From NCBI GenBank assembly GCA_025677835.1, contig JAIXMR010000057.1:62001-126000 (forward strand): a stretch of 64,000 nucleotides of DNA, written 5' to 3'. The number at the start of each line of letters is the position of its first letter. The first letter of the stretch is position 1. The notes below the pieces were generated by a model. That model did not search any database. It saw only the letters and a program-made list of their open reading frames with translations, and was not told the origin of the DNA. This document shows, in pieces, positions 19,564 through 28,833 of this stretch. This DNA is from Sporodiniella umbellata (taxonomy: Eukaryota; Mucoromycota; Mucoromycetes; Mucorales; Rhizopodaceae). Both the position numbers and the translations under genes were made by a program.

Positions 19564-20409
19564 TTTCCTCGTAGAATAGCTTATGATCGGTGTCAAAAGG
19601 ATCAGAACATAGTTTTGGAAAACTAGCTAAACATAAATAACCCTCTTTGAGATACTGTACAGGAAACTACGGAGAGCCGTATCTCACAATTTGAAGGCTT
19701 GAAAGTTTCAAAGATTACAGTTTTTGAGTTAAAGACGAAGGTTCGTACTTTGACAATGAACAAAGGATCATCGAATGATAGTCGAGGATTGCTTTGCTCC
19801 TGTTCCTATTTATAATGACAGCAACTTTCACAGAATGCGCCATAATTTGTTCCTGAATATTGTGAACAAGGTAAAAGATACCGATTACTACTTTGTCCGA
19901 AAAAAAAGATGCCGCAAAGCTGCCTGTCTTCAACCACGCTTTAGCTAGCTCCACGCTTAGACAATTTTTGTTGTTGCTTGATTAAGCTGGCTCTACTGGT
20001 AGAGTTGCGTCAACGGAGTGAGAAGGATATTATTATATTAGAAAATACTTATTAAAAAGCTATCGAAGTGGCGGTACGCATTACAATAATTGATTTATGA
20101 TATACCATTTAATTTTATTTTTAACAAAATCAATGCTCAAAACTTATTCAAATACATATCTGTGCATATTTCGCTCTAATGCTCATCAACTGTACGCTTC
20201 GTTCTTTTTTATTGATTGCTAGGTGATAAACAAATAATAACGGGCTCTACCTTTCTTTTTGGCGAACCAGAGGGACTAACCTGAGCATAATCACTGATTT
20301 CGATCAAGTCATACTTGTAAGATTGATCAACGTGTGATAATGCAATTGTGTTACTGAGATTTACCACGACCTCTTTCCAGGTATACAAGGTTTCAACACT
20401 GTTCCTGAG
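19157..20409 (+). repeat. Left arm of 1.25-kb inverted repeat
   Basis: This stretch is repeated in reverse complement at 22258-23516 with only occasional substitutions (for example A/G at about 19771 against 22890) and a length difference in an internal A/T tract (about 30 against 36 bases). It starts at TTTGCTGGATTTTTTTTGG, carries the 48-codon ORF at 19242-19388, runs through the long A tract at about 19530-19560, and ends inside the 3' part of the nuclease-like gene, where the two copies stop matching. Near identity across noncoding sequence shows a recent duplication. Confidence 0.9.
19242..19388 (+). CDS. 48-codon ORF in element terminus (N-terminal module)
   Basis: Starts MTFQVFQKDDFRNAFDENE and ends YMDLKPP before TAA. 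The same ORF start occurs at 22134-22274 (plus; 46 codons after a different junction) and 23285-23431 (minus; same 48 codons). It lies within the terminal repeat of the element, so it may be a short leader exon, a small element protein, or the remnant of a larger gene's first exon. Acidic, Asp/Glu/Asn-rich, with no domain I recognise. Upstream sequence is shared among all three copies. Confidence 0.4.
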   Translation: MTFQVFQKDDFRNAFDENENQPAEVGVDDMYSLENITSCDSYMDLKPP

Positions 20410-21066
20410 CTGCTTCAACTCTACAAGAGAACCTATCAAACTGAAACTCCCAATCTTGTGTCCTACAAAGCAGTTCTCATGTTTGTACAATTGAACCATG
20501 TAAGCGGATTTGCCAGCGAAATCAAAATAAACGAGCTGATGATCAATGTTTCCAGTTAAAAGATGTATGTCATTTAAAATACAGGCGCTGATCCTCAGGT
20601 TTTTGTTTTGCTGTTGACGTAATATATTTGTGGAGACATTTGCCTTTTTGAATTCAATGGAGCAGATTTCTACATCATCAGTATATGTTTCAAGGTTGCA
20701 TGCAACGAGAACATCAATTCTTTTTCCGTACGCGGTCTCACCGTTATTAATAACCTGCATTCTTTGTGTCGAGATTGATGCCGTTTCACCAGATTTCAAT
20801 AATACACGAGTGTCATCTAAAAGAGTTTGCAAAACATTGCTAAATTCCTGGAGATAGATAAACTCTGAAAACTTTGGCTCTCGCTTATACTGTTCCATGT
20901 TGTTGACACTAAAAAAAAAACCACAAATGTTGTTCGCAATAAATAAATAATAGAAGAAAAGCCTTACATGATACCAATCATTGATAAGACCCTATAAGTT
21001 ACAGAACTTTTGTCAGTTTCCTTTGTTTTTCTCATATCAATGAGTAACGACATGACCAGTATCAAA
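20209..21066 (-). CDS. PD-(D/E)XK nuclease-like protein of a mobile element
   Basis: The main exon 20209-20908 encodes about 230 residues. A further exon, 20968-21066, joins in frame through GTAAGG and TTTTTAG signals to give ...VLSMIGIIVNNMEQYKREP. More coding-like fragments lie upstream on the same strand (to about 21,965, such as VKYAKTFWEKHIEKELG and LKDFIYNALKRLPMVSLRHS), so the intact gene is probably longer. Core motifs KRIDVLVA, then VEICSIEFKKAN, then QQQNKNLRISACIL fit the D...ExK...Q pattern of PD-(D/E)XK nucleases. That assignment is by eye. The 3' end lies inside the duplicated arm, and a truncated copy is in the right arm. A role in element mobility is inference from position. 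Confidence 0.55.
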
Positions 21067-22008: not shown

Positions 22009-22249
22009 GGAATTTTCAAAAAAATGCTATTTTAACAAGCTGCTTGCATTTGCTGGATTTTTTTTGGCACGTTTTCCAAATAAAAAACTGTTCAGAATTG
22101 AGAATAGCGTTCTTTACTTTATCTTAGTAGAAAATGACCTTTCAAGTCTTTCAAAAAGACGATTTCAGAAATGCTTTTGATGAAAATGAAAACCAACCAG
22201 CCGAGGTGGGTGTTGATGACATGTATTCCCTTGAAAACATTACAAGTTG
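22009..22249 (+). repeat. Terminal inverted repeat, left end
   Basis: Begins GGAATTTTCAAAAAAATGC and ends ...CATTACAAGTTG. It matches the reverse complement of 23316-23557 and, from TTTGCTGG onward, the left arm beginning at 19157. It contains the start of the short MTFQVFQ ORF. Identity between the two ends stops abruptly at position 22249. Confidence 0.75.
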
Positions 22250-22250
22250 C

Positions 22251-22458
22251 GAAACAACTCAGGAACAGTGTTGAAACCTTGTATACCTGGAAAGAGGTCG
22301 TGGTAAATCTCAGTAACACAATTGCATTATCACACGTTGATCAATCTTACAAGTATGACTTGATCGAAATCAGTGATTATGCTCAGGTTAGTCCCTCTGG
22401 TTCGCCAAAAAGAAAGGTAGAGCCCGTTATTATTTGTTTATCACCTAGCAATCAATAA
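22251..22458 (+). pseudogene. 5'-truncated nuclease-like gene
   Basis: Encodes only the last roughly 70 residues of the nuclease-like protein at 20209-20908 (KQLRNSVETLYTWKEV to CLSPSNQ). The upstream codons of the gene are replaced at the junction by the terminal repeat. The Lys-Gln codons at the junction differ synonymously from the left copy (AAACAA against AAGCAG), so the parent was not identical to the left copy. It lacks all the proposed catalytic residues. Confidence 0.7.
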
Positions 22459-23709: not shown

Positions 23710-25896
23710 TTACTTTTTGTCTTTATCAGTACCCAAGACCTTTCCAAGACCAAAGCCTTCCAAGATCTTGTTAAGACCAATGCCTCCCAAAAGGCTATTG
23801 AGAATAGAACCAAGGCCAAGTCCATTTAGTAAATTACCCACAAGTCCAAGCACACCAGTAAGTAAAAGGCCAACGGCTGAAAGAATTTGCAGCAAAGGAC
23901 TCTGTAGAATGTTCCATAGGGGACTAAGAGCCTTCTTGGCATGAGGCATGTTCTTGACTTTCTTCTTAGCCTTATCAATAGTGGTTTCCACTTCACCTGT
24001 CAATTGGGATAAGAGTTCAGCCAAGTGGTATTCTTCAGGAGATGCTTCTCTCTGGGATGTTTTGGCTTGTGCGGTTTTGGCAATTCTTCCGGTAGGGTCC
24101 AGACTCTTGATAGCACCTTCTGCTTCACTAAGAATATTGGAGGCTTGTTCAATCAAAGGTTTGACATCATCCACCAGCTTTTTCTCATTGCGTTCATCAG
24201 ATGGCTTGGCTTCTTCGGCATCAATATGGTCAGTGATACTTTTAAGAATAGGCTTGATTTTGTCGAGCGATTTCTGAATAGCGCTAGACATCATACTGGC
24301 CAGCTTGCGGTACTCTTCTTCTTCTTTTTCTTTGTCAGAGAGTTTCTGTTGTTCTTCTCGCTCTTGTTGCTTTTCTTCGTCAGTCTTTTCTTTGAACATC
24401 TCGGCCTTGCCTACAATGTTGCCTTCATGGTTGATTATGTTGCCCTCGTCGTCCACCTTGAATCCAGCCCAGTTATAAGCAGCATGTTTGTCAGCAGAGC
24501 CCACAATATTGTCGTCTTTGTCAACCACCTTTCCAGATTTTCGGACCTCGGGAGAAAATTCGTTAATATGAGGATAAGGGTTAGACCACTTCTGTTCTTC
24601 TTCTTTAGGCTCTTCTTTAGGCTCCTCTTCTTTGATCATTTCAGCTTTGCCAACTATACTTCCTTCATGGTTCACTACATTGCCTTCGTCATCGACCTTG
24701 AAGCCCACCATTTTTTCAGCAGCACGGCGATCAACGTGGCCCACCAGGTTATCATCACTATCAAGCACTTTTCCAGACTTCTTGACTTCAGGAGAGTTTT
24801 CGTTGACCCAGGCATAAGGGTTGGAGAACTTCTTTTCCTCTTCTTTAGGCTCTTCGATAGTTTCCTCGACAGGCTCTTCTTCTTTGATCATTTCAGCTTT
24901 ACCAACAATGTTGCCTTCGTCATTGACTACATTGCCCTCGTCATCGACCTTGAAGCCTACCATTTTTTCAGCAGCACGGCGATCAACATGGCCCACTACA
25001 TTGTCTTCACTATCGAGCACTTTTCCAGACTTCTTGACTTCAGGGGAGTTTTCGTTGACCCAAGTGTAAGGGTTGGAGAACTTCTTTTCCTCCTCTTTAG
25101 GCTCTTCGACAGCTTCTTCTTTAGGCTCTTCTTCTTTGATCATTTCAGCTTTACCAACGATATTGCCTTCATGGTTCACTACATTGCCTTCGTCATCGAC
25201 CTTGAAGCCCACCATCTTTTCAGCAGCGCGTTTGTCAACGTTTCCCACCAAGTTGTCTTCGCTATCGAGCACTTTTCCAGACTTTTTAACTTCAGGAGAG
25301 TTTTCGTTGACCCAAGTGTAAGGGTTGGAGAACTTCTTTTCCTCTTCTTTAGGCTCTTCGACAGCTTCTTCTTTAGGCTCTTCTTCTTTGATCATTTCAG
25401 CTTTACCAACGATGCTGCCTTCGTCGTTTACTACGTTACCCTCATCATCGACCTTGAAGCCGGCTAGCTTGGGAGCGGCTCTAGGATCAACGTGGCCAAC
25501 AATATTGTCATCTTGATCAAGCACTTTTCCCGACTTTCGCACGACAGGGGAGTTTTCATTGACCCAGGGGTATTCCATTGGTTTGACTTGACCTACGACT
25601 TTGCCTTCATCGTCTTTCACTTCTCCGTGTTCACCTACAGGTTGTCCTTGAAGTTGTTCGGCTTTTCCTTGGACTAGGCGACCAATGACACGACCGGATT
25701 GTCTATCAGTAACCAAACCCGACTTTTTGACCTTTTGGCCCACCAGAGGTTCATAATTGCTTTCGCTTTCGCTCAATTCACCGGGCTCAGACGAATCCGA
25801 ACTATCGTCCAATGCAGGCTTTTCTTGAGTAATTGGTTTTTCTTGATGGCTACTGGGTTGGAGTTCGATATCAGCGTTTTTTAGTTGCTCTGTCAT
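23710..25896 (-). CDS. DUF3659 repeat protein (LEA-domain-like)
   Basis: Single-exon 728-residue acidic protein. After a disordered N-terminus come tandem DUF3659-type units built on 'G.vvD.dGnivG.a' phrases (VGEHGEVKDDEGKVVGQ, AGFKVDDEGNVVNDEGSIVG). About five longer modules of 75-83 residues follow, each with WVNENSPEVKKSGKVLD, DNxVGHVDxRAAEKM, GFKVDDEGNVVN, GNIVGKAEMIKEEEP and a Glu/Lys-rich linker. A charged coiled-coil part (IQKSLDKIKPILKSITDHID) leads to a hydrophobic Gly/Leu-rich C-terminal region (LSAVGLLLTGVLGLVGNLLNG) ending KDKK. Repeats are also highly similar at the DNA level. Fungal proteins with these repeats are annotated as LEA-domain proteins of unknown function; a structural or membrane-associated scaffold is my inference. 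Long open frames on the other strand are shadows. Confidence 0.85.
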   Translation of the reverse strand: MTEQLKNADIELQPSSHQEKPITQEKPALDDSSDSSEPGELSESESNYEPLVGQKVKKSGLVTDRQSGRVIGRLVQGKAEQLQGQPVGEHGEVKDDEGKVVGQVKPMEYPWVNENSPVVRKSGKVLDQDDNIVGHVDPRAAPKLAGFKVDDEGNVVNDEGSIVGKAEMIKEEEPKEEAVEEPKEEEKKFSNPYTWVNENSPEVKKSGKVLDSEDNLVGNVDKRAAEKMVGFKVDDEGNVVNHEGNIVGKAEMIKEEEPKEEAVEEPKEEEKKFSNPYTWVNENSPEVKKSGKVLDSEDNVVGHVDRRAAEKMVGFKVDDEGNVVNDEGNIVGKAEMIKEEEPVEETIEEPKEEEKKFSNPYAWVNENSPEVKKSGKVLDSDDNLVGHVDRRAAEKMVGFKVDDEGNVVNHEGSIVGKAEMIKEEEPKEEPKEEEQKWSNPYPHINEFSPEVRKSGKVVDKDDNIVGSADKHAAYNWAGFKVDDEGNIINHEGNIVGKAEMFKEKTDEEKQQEREEQQKLSDKEKEEEEYRKLASMMSSAIQKSLDKIKPILKSITDHIDAEEAKPSDERNEKKLVDDVKPLIEQASNILSEAEGAIKSLDPTGRIAKTAQAKTSQREASPEEYHLAELLSQLTGEVETTIDKAKKKVKNMPHAKKALSPLWNILQSPLLQILSAVGLLLTGVLGLVGNLLNGLGLGSILNSLLGGIGLNKILEGFGLGKVLGTDKDKK

Positions 25897-26638
25897 GTTT
25901 ATTATTATATAGAAGAAATATTTAAAATATATGTAGATCAGAAAAATAAGAAAGATCGTCCTTGGCTTAAATACTTTTGTTTTAAAGCTAAATTAGAGTC
26001 TAAATAGAAAAAGGGATTTTGGGGGAGTAAAGAAACGGTTTATGGCATGATTTCTAAAGCCAAGAGAAAGCTTATAGAATCATGATTTCATTAGAGTAAA
26101 TTGAGAAAAAATGATTTCATACAATAAAGTACATCAAAACAAAACTTTGTATTTCAAAATATAGGCAATAATTATACTCTTGAAACACACTCAAAGAAGG
26201 CGCGCCTAGCCTCGATTTTCAAGAAACATAAAAAAGAGTTGATCAAAAAAAAGATCTAGCGGATCAGATAAAAGAAACACAAAGAGAAAAGGAGTTCGTT
26301 TAATAGCGTCTACAATAAGGTTATGTATGTAGATCCAACGAAAAAGAATCTTGGTGCACTGATCTACTTTGCATTTCTTCCTCAGCTAATATCCCAGCCA
26401 AATTCCCTTTTTAAATTATTTTGAAGCTAATTTGGAATGAAACAAAGCATAAATCGTGCTACCATTCTTGACACACGCTTGTCATTACAATGAGAATGGG
26501 TCGATTTTTTTTTTTTTTTTTTTTTTGGTATTAAGCTTTAAAAGGTTAAAGTAAGAGTACCTTTAGTCTGTTCATAATAAAGTACAGAAAAAAAAAAGGC
26601 ATTTGTAGTCATAAATGTTTAAAAGGTATTTATTATTG
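25897..26638. other. Intergenic, nothing recognised
   Basis: 742 bases between the DUF3659 gene start and the 3' end of the first small protein gene. AT-rich, with a GGCGCGCC palindrome at about 26,200 and a poly-T run at about 26,505-26,526. No ORF or RNA gene seen. Confidence 0.5.
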
Positions 26639-26911
26639 TTATTGTTCTAATAAAGTCAGAGTGATATCCCCTTTAGCTCTTGCTCTTAGTTGGATTTCTG
26701 CATCGATATTTAGGTCGAGACGAAGACTGGGTGCTTTTGGTTTGTTTCCAGTTGACTTTCTTTTAGATCGAGGTTTCTTTGTTATAGCTTTTTTGCTTGA
26801 CGCGATTTCTTTGTCATTCTCTTCGGTATCTTCACTTTCCTCATTTTCTAAACCTTTTTCACTCTCTTTATACTCTTTGTTTTCTTTTTGTTTTGACCCT
26901 GTTTGTGACAT
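26639..26911 (-). CDS. Small lysine-rich protein with C-terminal beta-motif, copy 1
   Basis: 90 residues, start MSQTGSKQKENKE. The first two thirds are disordered and highly charged: acidic (EESEDTEENDKE), then basic (KKPRSKRKSTGNKPK). The last roughly 28 residues form SLRLDLNIDAEIQLRARA then KGDITLTLLEQ, the element shared with the three neighbouring small genes. The alternation of hydrophobic and polar residues predicts two amphipathic beta strands with a Gly-Asp turn. I do not recognise a named family. Divergent from copy 2 over 388 bases. Confidence 0.8.
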   Translation of the reverse strand: MSQTGSKQKENKEYKESEKGLENEESEDTEENDKEIASSKKAITKKPRSKRKSTGNKPKAPSLRLDLNIDAEIQLRARAKGDITLTLLEQ

Positions 26912-27299
26912 TTGAGAGAGAGAGAGACTATAAACGAGAGTAAAAAATCTAAAAAAAAAAGGGGGGTAAATTGACTGGTTTATTTTTTTGAGGGGAGCTG
27001 CTGTTTTTCTGATGTATTTTAAATATACCTCTGGGAGTGATGTAATGATCACCCAAAGGCTGATGAGTGACTTTTTCAAGGTTGTTTTATTATTGTTATT
27101 GCTTAGTCTTACCTAAAGTTTATTGTGCAAGCTGGTGATTATTATAAAAAAAAATTGTAACCTTCATGTTGTCATTGTTTTGTCATTTTATCATTTGAGT
27201 AAGAAAAAGAAATTCACAGAGCTTTCGTAACAGAACCAAAATTATCTCTCTTTTTCTTTTCCCTTTTTTAACTTTTTTTTTCCCCTTTGTTTCTACCTA
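26912..27299. promoter_or_regulatory. Divergent promoter of small-protein copies 1 and 2
   Basis: 388 bases between two divergent start codons. A GA-rich run lies next to copy 1 and long C/T stretches (about 27,245-27,295) lie next to copy 2. No TATA box stands out. Confidence 0.45.
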
Positions 27300-27632
27300 A
27301 TGGCACCTACCAAAGAAAAGGAAAGACCTGCCGAAAATAAAGTGGAAGAAGCATCTGACAATGAAAGCAAGCAAGTGGCTACTAAAAAGAAATCATCTAA
27401 AGAAAAGGGCCTGAAGAAAAAGAAAAAGCGGTCATCCAAGAGCAAAGAAAGCCCACTTGATCTGGTCAACGGTGTAGGTCAAGCAGCCACAGGTGCTTTG
27501 GGTCAGCAATCCTCTTCAGGTGGTGGAAATAACTCGGGCGCTTTAAGTTTAAGACTGGATCTTAACCTGGAAGTAGAAATCACTATTAAAGCTAGAGTAC
27601 ACGGTGATGTGACCTTGGCTTTGTTGGCTTAA
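27300..27632 (+). CDS. Small lysine-rich protein with C-terminal beta-motif, copy 2
   Basis: 110 residues, start MAPTKEKERPAENK. Strongly basic middle (KKKSSKEKGLKKKKKRSSKS), a Gly/Ser/Asn linker (SSSGGGNNSG), then the shared end ALSLRLDLNLEVEITIKAR and VHGDVTLALLA. The N-terminal parts of the four copies do not align, while the ends are near identical, so only the C-terminal strand pair is under strong constraint. Intronless. Confidence 0.8.
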   Translation: MAPTKEKERPAENKVEEASDNESKQVATKKKSSKEKGLKKKKKRSSKSKESPLDLVNGVGQAATGALGQQSSSGGGNNSGALSLRLDLNLEVEITIKARVHGDVTLALLA

Positions 27633-27896
27633 TACACGAAAAGAAAAATTTTTTTTTTCAGTGCTGTTTATTACCCCTTATCCTAATAGCTTTTTTTATA
27701 TATCTTTTTCCTCATAATAATAATCAATAAACTTGGACACAAATTATATGTGTCAGGCACCACCCAATGTGACACTAAAAAGACAGTGACTGAGAATGAA
27801 AACAATCTTTGAATGTCTAACAATAAAAAAAAAAAAAAAAAAGACGCGTTGTATATACATGGAGGCTTTATTATGGTTATTAATTGTTCATTTATA

Positions 27897-28259
27897 TTAT
27901 TGCAAGAGGGAAAGCGTTACATCGCCATGCACGCGCGCTTTGAGCTCAATTTCTACATCAAGATTAAGGTCGAGACGAAGACTGAGATTCTTTTTGTCTT
28001 CGGATTGATTTTTTACTGCCCGTTTGGGTTTCTTTACACGGTTTTTACGGTTCTTGTCAGCCTTTTGAAGTTGTTGTGTGTTTTCTTCTTCAGAGCTATC
28101 TTCTGTTTCTTCTTCAGTGGAGTCGTCGTCAGTAGCAGATGCAGTATCTTCTCTATCAGATGCCTCATCGTGTTTGTTATCTTTGAAGTCTTTCTGAGGT
28201 TGTGTTTGGTTTTCTTGTTCCGATGGGTTTTCTTGTGCTTGTTTTGTTTCTTCCGCCAT
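27897..28259 (-). CDS. Small lysine-rich protein with C-terminal beta-motif, copy 3
   Basis: 120 residues, start MAEETKQAQENPSEQ. A long acidic segment (DDDSTEEETEDSSEEENTQ) is followed by a basic one (KNRKNRVKKPKRAVKNQ), then NLSLRLDLNLDVEIELKAR and VHGDVTLSLLQ. It converges with copy 2 (264 bases apart) and diverges from copy 4 (283 bases). Intronless. Function unknown. Confidence 0.8.
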   Translation of the reverse strand: MAEETKQAQENPSEQENQTQPQKDFKDNKHDEASDREDTASATDDDSTEEETEDSSEEENTQQLQKADKNRKNRVKKPKRAVKNQSEDKKNLSLRLDLNLDVEIELKARVHGDVTLSLLQ

Positions 28260-28542
28260 TGTTTGAGTTTATTTTAAATAAAGTATAAATGTATAAATAG
28301 ATGTGAATTCAAAAGTTTCAATATGGATTTTAAGCTTTCCTTTTTATACGTTTTTATGATTGAGTGATTTGGACATTACGTATGGATTTACACTCTAAAA
28401 AAGACCCTGTTTTTTTTTGGGTCTATATGAATCATTACCGGAGATTGAAATATAATTTTTATTGGGGGAGGGGATGTGAGATCATTAGCTTTATTTTCTT
28501 TCTTTCTTTTAATTTTTAATTTTTAGCTGTAACCCGATTTCT
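28260..28542. promoter_or_regulatory. Divergent promoter of small-protein copies 3 and 4
   Basis: 283-base spacer, AT-rich, with a pyrimidine run just before the copy 4 start (about 28,493-28,512). Confidence 0.4.
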
Positions 28543-28833
28543 ATGGAAGCAGCTAAACCAAAGAAAGAAAAACCTAAAGAGGGGCGAAAGAAAAAAAAAA
28601 GCAAAAAGCTAAAGATCAAACGAAAAGAAGATGATCCTCAAGTGACTATGGCTAAACAGCAAGCTGAAGTTTTAAAAGAAAGTGCAGCGAGGTTGAGCCA
28701 ACCTCCTGAACTGGCTGTGAACGGTGGTGTAAATAACCCTCGAGCGCTTCGATTGAGGCTGGACCTTAATTTAGACGCAGAAATACAACTAAAGGCTAAA
28801 ATCAAAGGCTACGTCAAGTTGACTTTACTCTAA
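28543..28833 (+). CDS. Small lysine-rich protein with C-terminal beta-motif, copy 4
   Basis: 96 residues, start MEAAKPKKEKPKEG. Very basic N-terminus (RKKKKSKKLKIKRKED), a helical Ala/Glu/Gln stretch (TMAKQQAEVLKESAARLS), then ALRLRLDLNLDAEIQLKAK and IKGYVKLTLL. This copy has Gly-Tyr instead of Gly-Asp at the turn and Lys instead of Thr, so it is the most divergent of the four at the motif. Intronless. Confidence 0.78.
   Translation: MEAAKPKKEKPKEGRKKKKSKKLKIKRKEDDPQVTMAKQQAEVLKESAARLSQPPELAVNGGVNNPRALRLRLDLNLDAEIQLKAKIKGYVKLTLL

Follow-up and report, generated by a model that had tools for sequence, protein, structure and literature searches.

Short beta-forming motifs in adjacent fungal genes are known from the HET-s/HRAM-type functional-amyloid signalling systems, in which the motif is often C-terminal, has a Gly in its turn and an Asn in its strand, and is found with adjacent NLR/HeLo genes. 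Disordered fungal proteins that are thought to assemble are described, in the available text of two papers, as the SPA/SPP septal-pore proteins of Pezizomycotina (PMC10023807; PMC5309816). A further group comprises proteins with DUF3659 (PF12396) and DUF6987 (PF22485) domains, some of which bear the name LEA domain protein. Here, we report on a 64,000-nucleotide stretch of the Sporodiniella umbellata genome (hereafter, the window), in which a gene of this last group lies beside four small genes, named a to d, whose products all end in one motif, termed motif I. Motif I recurs at the C terminus of proteins from several fungal phyla, and genes encoding it repeatedly lie close to DUF6987 genes.

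A C-terminal motif common to four small proteins

The window derives from contig C152 of a 25.9-Mb assembly, and the five genes of the cluster are as follows:

23710..25896, minus strand: 728-residue protein with six DUF3659 units and a C-terminal DUF6987 domain (open reading frame [ORF] list, Pfam profiles)
26639..26911, minus strand: motif I protein a, 90 residues (motif profile, E 7.7e-14)
27300..27632, plus strand: motif I protein b, 110 residues (motif profile, E 3.0e-18)
27897..28259, minus strand: motif I protein c, 120 residues (motif profile, E 1.1e-18)
28543..28833, plus strand: motif I protein d, 96 residues (motif profile, E 8.9e-15)

The original prediction held that four small intronless genes on alternating strands share a C-terminal motif but have unrelated N-terminal halves. 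Consistently, we found the ORFs of a, b, c, and d uninterrupted, on alternating strands, and exactly where they had been placed; their C-terminal ends align without gaps (13 of 28 columns invariant), and the motif profile recovers all four at E values of 8e-14 to 1e-18, with the next ORF of the window reaching only E 1.5. This profile was built from the motif stretches of retrieved relatives, including P0049, which is this genome's own protein from a second contig, C144, and is identical to the ORF at L025:3926-4135. The N-terminal parts are rich in charged residues, lack Cys, contain no more than one aromatic residue, and were absent from one another's matches at E 0.01 (for b, among the matches listed), in line with the claim that they are unrelated. 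More specifically, protein a has a low-complexity charged N-terminal part followed by the motif at its C terminus, the N-terminal part of b has relatives in other Mucorales, and that of d has relatives that include Rhizopus and Parasitella.

Motif I comprises 26 residues of the LRLDLNLDVEIELKARVHGDVTLSLL type. We drew 105 distinct versions (218 instances) from 334 retrieved proteins, using a protein search that required 5-residue words in common and a pattern that fixed L4, restricted positions 16, 20, and 21 to A/G, G/E, and D/S/Y/N, respectively, and accepted only hydrophobic residues where the motif is hydrophobic. Positions 4, 7, 16, and 20 were invariant among these versions, and positions 2, 3, 5, 6, 8, 21, 24, and 26 differed in at most 5 of the 105. 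Residues 2 to 8 are near-constant on the hydrophobic and polar faces alike. The polar residues R3 (102/105), D5 (103/105), and N7 (105/105), all present in 7/7 copies of the S. umbellata genome, are the safer part of this constancy, because the pattern left positions 3, 5, and 7 free. For the 21 pairs among the seven genomic copies, the proportions of synonymous differences (pS) were 0.62 to 1.05, i.e., near saturation, versus 0.04 to 0.30 for nonsynonymous differences (pN). Judged from these values, motif I is under purifying selection, as opposed to being recently duplicated.

The cluster had been put forward as a candidate for an undescribed system, and our scans matched the motif to no known Pfam domain: two of the four window proteins had a single match below the cut-off (E 0.37 and 0.61) and the other two had none, whereas the 48 members of set A3 yielded four families, each in one member, with no recurrent match to the motif. 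Motif strings appeared in no fungal paper of the open-licence literature, and the occurrences of one string elsewhere, among those listed, were unrelated.

A profile of the four proteins retrieved 550 proteins at E 0.01 among 1,775 candidates, and the figures given here rest on the best 120 of these 550. Named relatives come from Mucoromycota, Basidiomycota, Ascomycota, and one chytrid (Borealophlyctis), the phyla of those other than Borealophlyctis being the ones to which we take them to belong. By the pattern test, 116 of the 120 listed relatives carry one motif copy, three carry two, and one carries none; in 106 of the 119 with a recognised copy, the protein ends no more than two residues after the final Leu of the motif. 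We detected no confirmed relative in 84,980 bacterial and archaeal genomes, nor in the viral contigs scanned.

Linkage of motif I genes to DUF6987 genes

A genome search with the motif of c returned seven copies of motif I (four in the window on C152 and three on C144, a contig of 474,248 bases), and a search with the motif of d returned the same seven plus one chance match; these counts are lower bounds. DUF6987 is encoded at two places in the genome, i.e., the window gene and C144:216638-217045, and all seven genomic matches to DUF3659 fall in the same two genes. Every one of the seven motif genes lies less than 4 kb from the nearer DUF6987 gene. The order on C144, read inverted, is DUF6987 (-), a 157-residue protein (+), a' (-), b' (+), and c' (-), and that on C152 is DUF6987 (-), a (-), b (+), c (-), and d (+); gene order and strand alternation agree between the two clusters, that on C144 including a gene with a tail like motif II (see below) and that on C152 including d. 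The labels a', b', and c' are based on position and strand and, for c, also on a weak N-terminal match (E 0.0059). A single ancestral cluster appears to have been duplicated to give both, which therefore represent one independent case of linkage.

To look beyond this genome, we compared 211 motif rows with 120 DUF6987 rows and took contigs of equal size to be the same contig. Nine motif I/DUF6987 pairs were found on equal-size contigs, each pair within one species. The linked contigs are six from Mucorales, namely, Rhizopus microsporus (two), Parasitella (two assemblies, three pairs), Blakeslea, and Backusella, and two from Sordariomycetes (Ascomycota), namely, Achaetomium and Corynascus, the Corynascus genes bearing consecutive locus tags (C7999DRAFT_34774 / _34775). 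Rhizopus delemar G6F56, in which the two families lie on separate contigs of <3 kb, is uninformative, and contigs from Basidiomycota (Desarmillaria, Guyanagaster) carry more than one motif gene. Co-occurrence of motif genes with DUF3659 genes elsewhere, on which the original prediction had been staked beforehand, was thus observed on C144, on the eight linked contigs from Mucorales and Sordariomycetes listed above, and in the 15 joined gene models (of 94) described below. Taken from these genome comparisons, the linkage of motif I to DUF6987 genes is well supported; we found no report of its linkage to DUF3659/DUF6987 genes in the open-licence literature.

Joined gene models and a second tail

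We examined 94 longer motif I proteins, the candidates being proteins of up to about 875 residues. In 15 of these gene models, from ten genera that we take to be all Sordariomycetes, motif I is followed by DUF3659 and then by a second tail, motif II, a strand-turn-strand element of the form DIFLDVKSTxxGIQLTIRIPTVF; all six of the 15 joined models that were rescanned passed the DUF3659 cut-off. Because the stretch right after motif I is unconserved in the joined models shown, annotation has probably merged two adjacent genes in each of them. Whether merged model or real fusion, motif I and DUF3659-motif II are same-strand neighbours.

The 157-residue protein on C144 has a comparable tail:

L025:4240-4713 (G000:C144:213739-214212), minus strand: 157-residue motif II-like protein (tail resembles motif II, E 0.044)

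It has, by eye, a coiled-coil-like middle, and its motif II-like tail ends DIIVKVDATRKGITLTLHIPRNK. The motif II profile ranks this protein first among the ORFs of the window and L025, yet only at the E value given. If it is homologous, the trio of motif I, motif II, and DUF6987 would predate the split of Mucoromycota and Ascomycota.

Separately, a PF28325 domain occurs in 6 of the 94 longer models (P0250, P0255, P0269, P0277, P0283, and P0286), with no local Pfam match for this part in the three models tested. The extra part precedes motif I in P0250 and P0283, which suggests a further upstream neighbour, probably also merged by annotation.

The DUF3659-DUF6987 protein

The large neighbour had been described as a 728-residue protein of tandem DUF3659 units with a hydrophobic Gly/Leu-rich end. 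It passes the DUF3659 cut-off (267.2 bits versus 24.8; E 4.3e-81) with six PF12396 stretches, of which residues 50 to 108 form the best-scoring unit, and it passes the DUF6987 cut-off (288.8 bits versus 26; E 3e-86) over residues 522 to 719. The Gly/Leu-rich end lies inside this DUF6987 domain, which had been overlooked. The C-terminal region was modelled as one piece:

23713..24579, minus strand: last DUF3659 unit and DUF6987 (residues 440 to 728), AlphaFold helical bundle

This region is predicted to be a helical bundle with a mean predicted local distance difference test (pLDDT) score of 85.5, in which a 42-residue helix (residues 651 to 692) holds the conserved hydrophobic Gly/Leu segment, as located by hydropathy. 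Many columns of this segment are invariant among 50 sequences from Mucorales to Ascomycota. In a fold comparison, the DUF6987 model weakly resembles fungal MP1-type fatty-acid-binding bundles (HsbA/MP1 class). The LEA label stems from the source names of relatives P0212, P0267, and P0272; no LEA profile (LEA_4 presumably being PF02987) was among the 11 families listed for the 728-residue protein at E 1. The term DUF3659 did not occur in the open-licence literature, and the only mention of DUF6987 there, as far as the available text extends, is a table naming protein J9VK61 among entries taken to be Cryptococcus (PMC12345193).

A 413-residue ORF at 24226-25467 (plus strand) runs antisense to the DUF3659 repeats and is probably a by-product of their composition.

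Other features of the window

Words of the bZIP-like type TACGTA(A) occur repeatedly upstream of the cluster genes at both loci (window 25897-28543 and L025), a weak signal given the many words tested. Outside the cluster, oppositely oriented ORFs at 20209-20898 (minus strand) and 22171-22458 (plus strand) look identical, by eye, over their C-terminal ~68 residues; this pair is an inverted duplication of a gene piece without assigned function.

Predicted structure and interpretation

The alternation of hydrophobic and charged residues in motif I had been read as beta amphipathicity, and the hydrophobic moment of strand 1 bears this out (0.66 to 0.72 at the beta angle versus 0.02 to 0.10 at the helical angle). 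Among the weak residue couplings are the pairs 18-22 and 19-21, as would suit a turn at G20, and strands 1 and 2 may form a hairpin round this residue. In contrast, the proposed contact of the motif with the DUF3659 protein, as well as a polymer or coat, found no support: in an AlphaFold prediction for a naturally occurring joined chain that contains two DUF3659 units, motif I was strand-free, with pLDDT scores of 41 to 45. That the motif is unfolded alone in AlphaFold is consistent with folding on assembly, and motif I most likely folds on association. Because R3, D5, and N7 are constant, the two-face constancy of residues 2 to 8 suggests tight packing on both faces, by sheet assembly or strand addition rather than by one-sided lipid binding.

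With a probability of roughly 0.4, we favour the reading that the window cluster represents one instance of a fungal gene cluster of ancient origin, in which several small, largely disordered proteins with a C-terminal beta tag would be kept beside a DUF3659-repeat/DUF6987 gene. Upon association, motif I would run out along an extended amphipathic strand, turn at the conserved Gly, and come back as a short second strand; family members would co-assemble through their tags and/or dock them on one common partner, and the unlike charged tails would thereby be gathered on a single scaffold. The DUF3659-DUF6987 protein would probably hold this scaffold at a membrane or other hydrophobic surface by means of its helical bundle and Gly/Leu helix. 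To our knowledge, gene order is seldom conserved across fungal phyla, yet the cluster recurs in Mucorales and Sordariomycetes, which suggests that its products work together. A bolder version, i.e., an intracellular beta-tag cluster older than the Mucoromycota/Ascomycota divergence, in which motif I polymerises, motif II bridges to DUF3659, and DUF6987 anchors the whole as a new class of scaffold or functional amyloid, strikes us as rather improbable.

Several results weigh against the co-assembly reading. The two families lie on different contigs in Trichoderma harzianum THAR02, Umbelopsis sp. PMI_123, and Rhizopus microsporus BCV72 (among the matches listed). Moreover, because none of the 120 listed DUF6987 proteins has motif I and no named Basidiomycota is among the DUF6987 matches listed, the small proteins may work without DUF6987. 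The residue couplings are both weak and mixed, and the motif neither folded nor contacted anything in the AlphaFold prediction made, a low pLDDT being equally to be expected were the hairpin idea mistaken. Finally, the constancy of the motif is somewhat overstated owing to the restrictions of the collecting pattern and the 5-residue-word search.

Some of the same evidence would suit a plainer role, in which motif I is only a docking tag: a short linear motif completing a sheet in a single conserved partner whose gene lies elsewhere, with members competing and no polymer formed. The near-constancy of both faces of residues 2 to 8, the C-terminal position in most listed relatives, the presence in one genome of several members with unlike N termini, and the unfolded state of the motif alone all fit this idea; however, no partner was found, the motif stays unfolded in the joined chain with two DUF3659 units, and the three listed relatives with two motifs (possibly merged gene models) do not suit it, so that we consider it possible but doubtful. 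Strict hydrophobic/polar alternation, together with the strongly hydrophobic helix in the linked DUF6987, might instead indicate an amphipathic beta-strand that lies on the lipid of a membrane or droplet, each protein coating this surface alone, but simple lipid binding has no need of near-constant R3, D5, and N7, and we regard this as unlikely. Less likely still is a HET-s/HRAM-type motif, copied between adjacent genes, whose fold would pass from protein to protein. The occurrence in adjacent genes, the constant Asn, and the Gly-Asp turn do recall HET-s-related features in the available text of PMC5485727 and PMC9815663. However, an NLR/HeLo domain was present in 0 of 48 A3 members, no such family was among the Pfam assignments of the 94 longer proteins, and none was found in 8 neighbour ORFs at both loci (intron-split genes only partly covered; NLRs above about 875 residues not searched). 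Furthermore, motif I is near-constant across phyla, whereas HRAMs, according to the available text, have diversified into subfamilies (PMC5485727).

Comparison with known systems

What sets motif I apart is near-constancy over very deep fungal divergence in a sequence that we found in no Pfam model or open-licence fungal paper. The 26-residue peptide, together with the three gene families that are linked, would offer a handle on many unannotated disordered fungal proteins. Although the HRAM systems likewise place a short beta motif in adjacent genes, the motif I proteins and the scanned neighbour ORFs are without an NLR/HeLo domain, and motif I spans ~26 residues of strict alternation in proteins whose remainder looks disordered. 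The SPA/SPP proteins resemble the small proteins in being disordered, but motif I extends to Mucorales and a chytrid, a distinction drawn from published descriptions of the SPA proteins. As for the DUF3659/DUF6987 proteins, the 728-residue neighbour falls squarely within both families, whereas the motif I proteins belong to neither.

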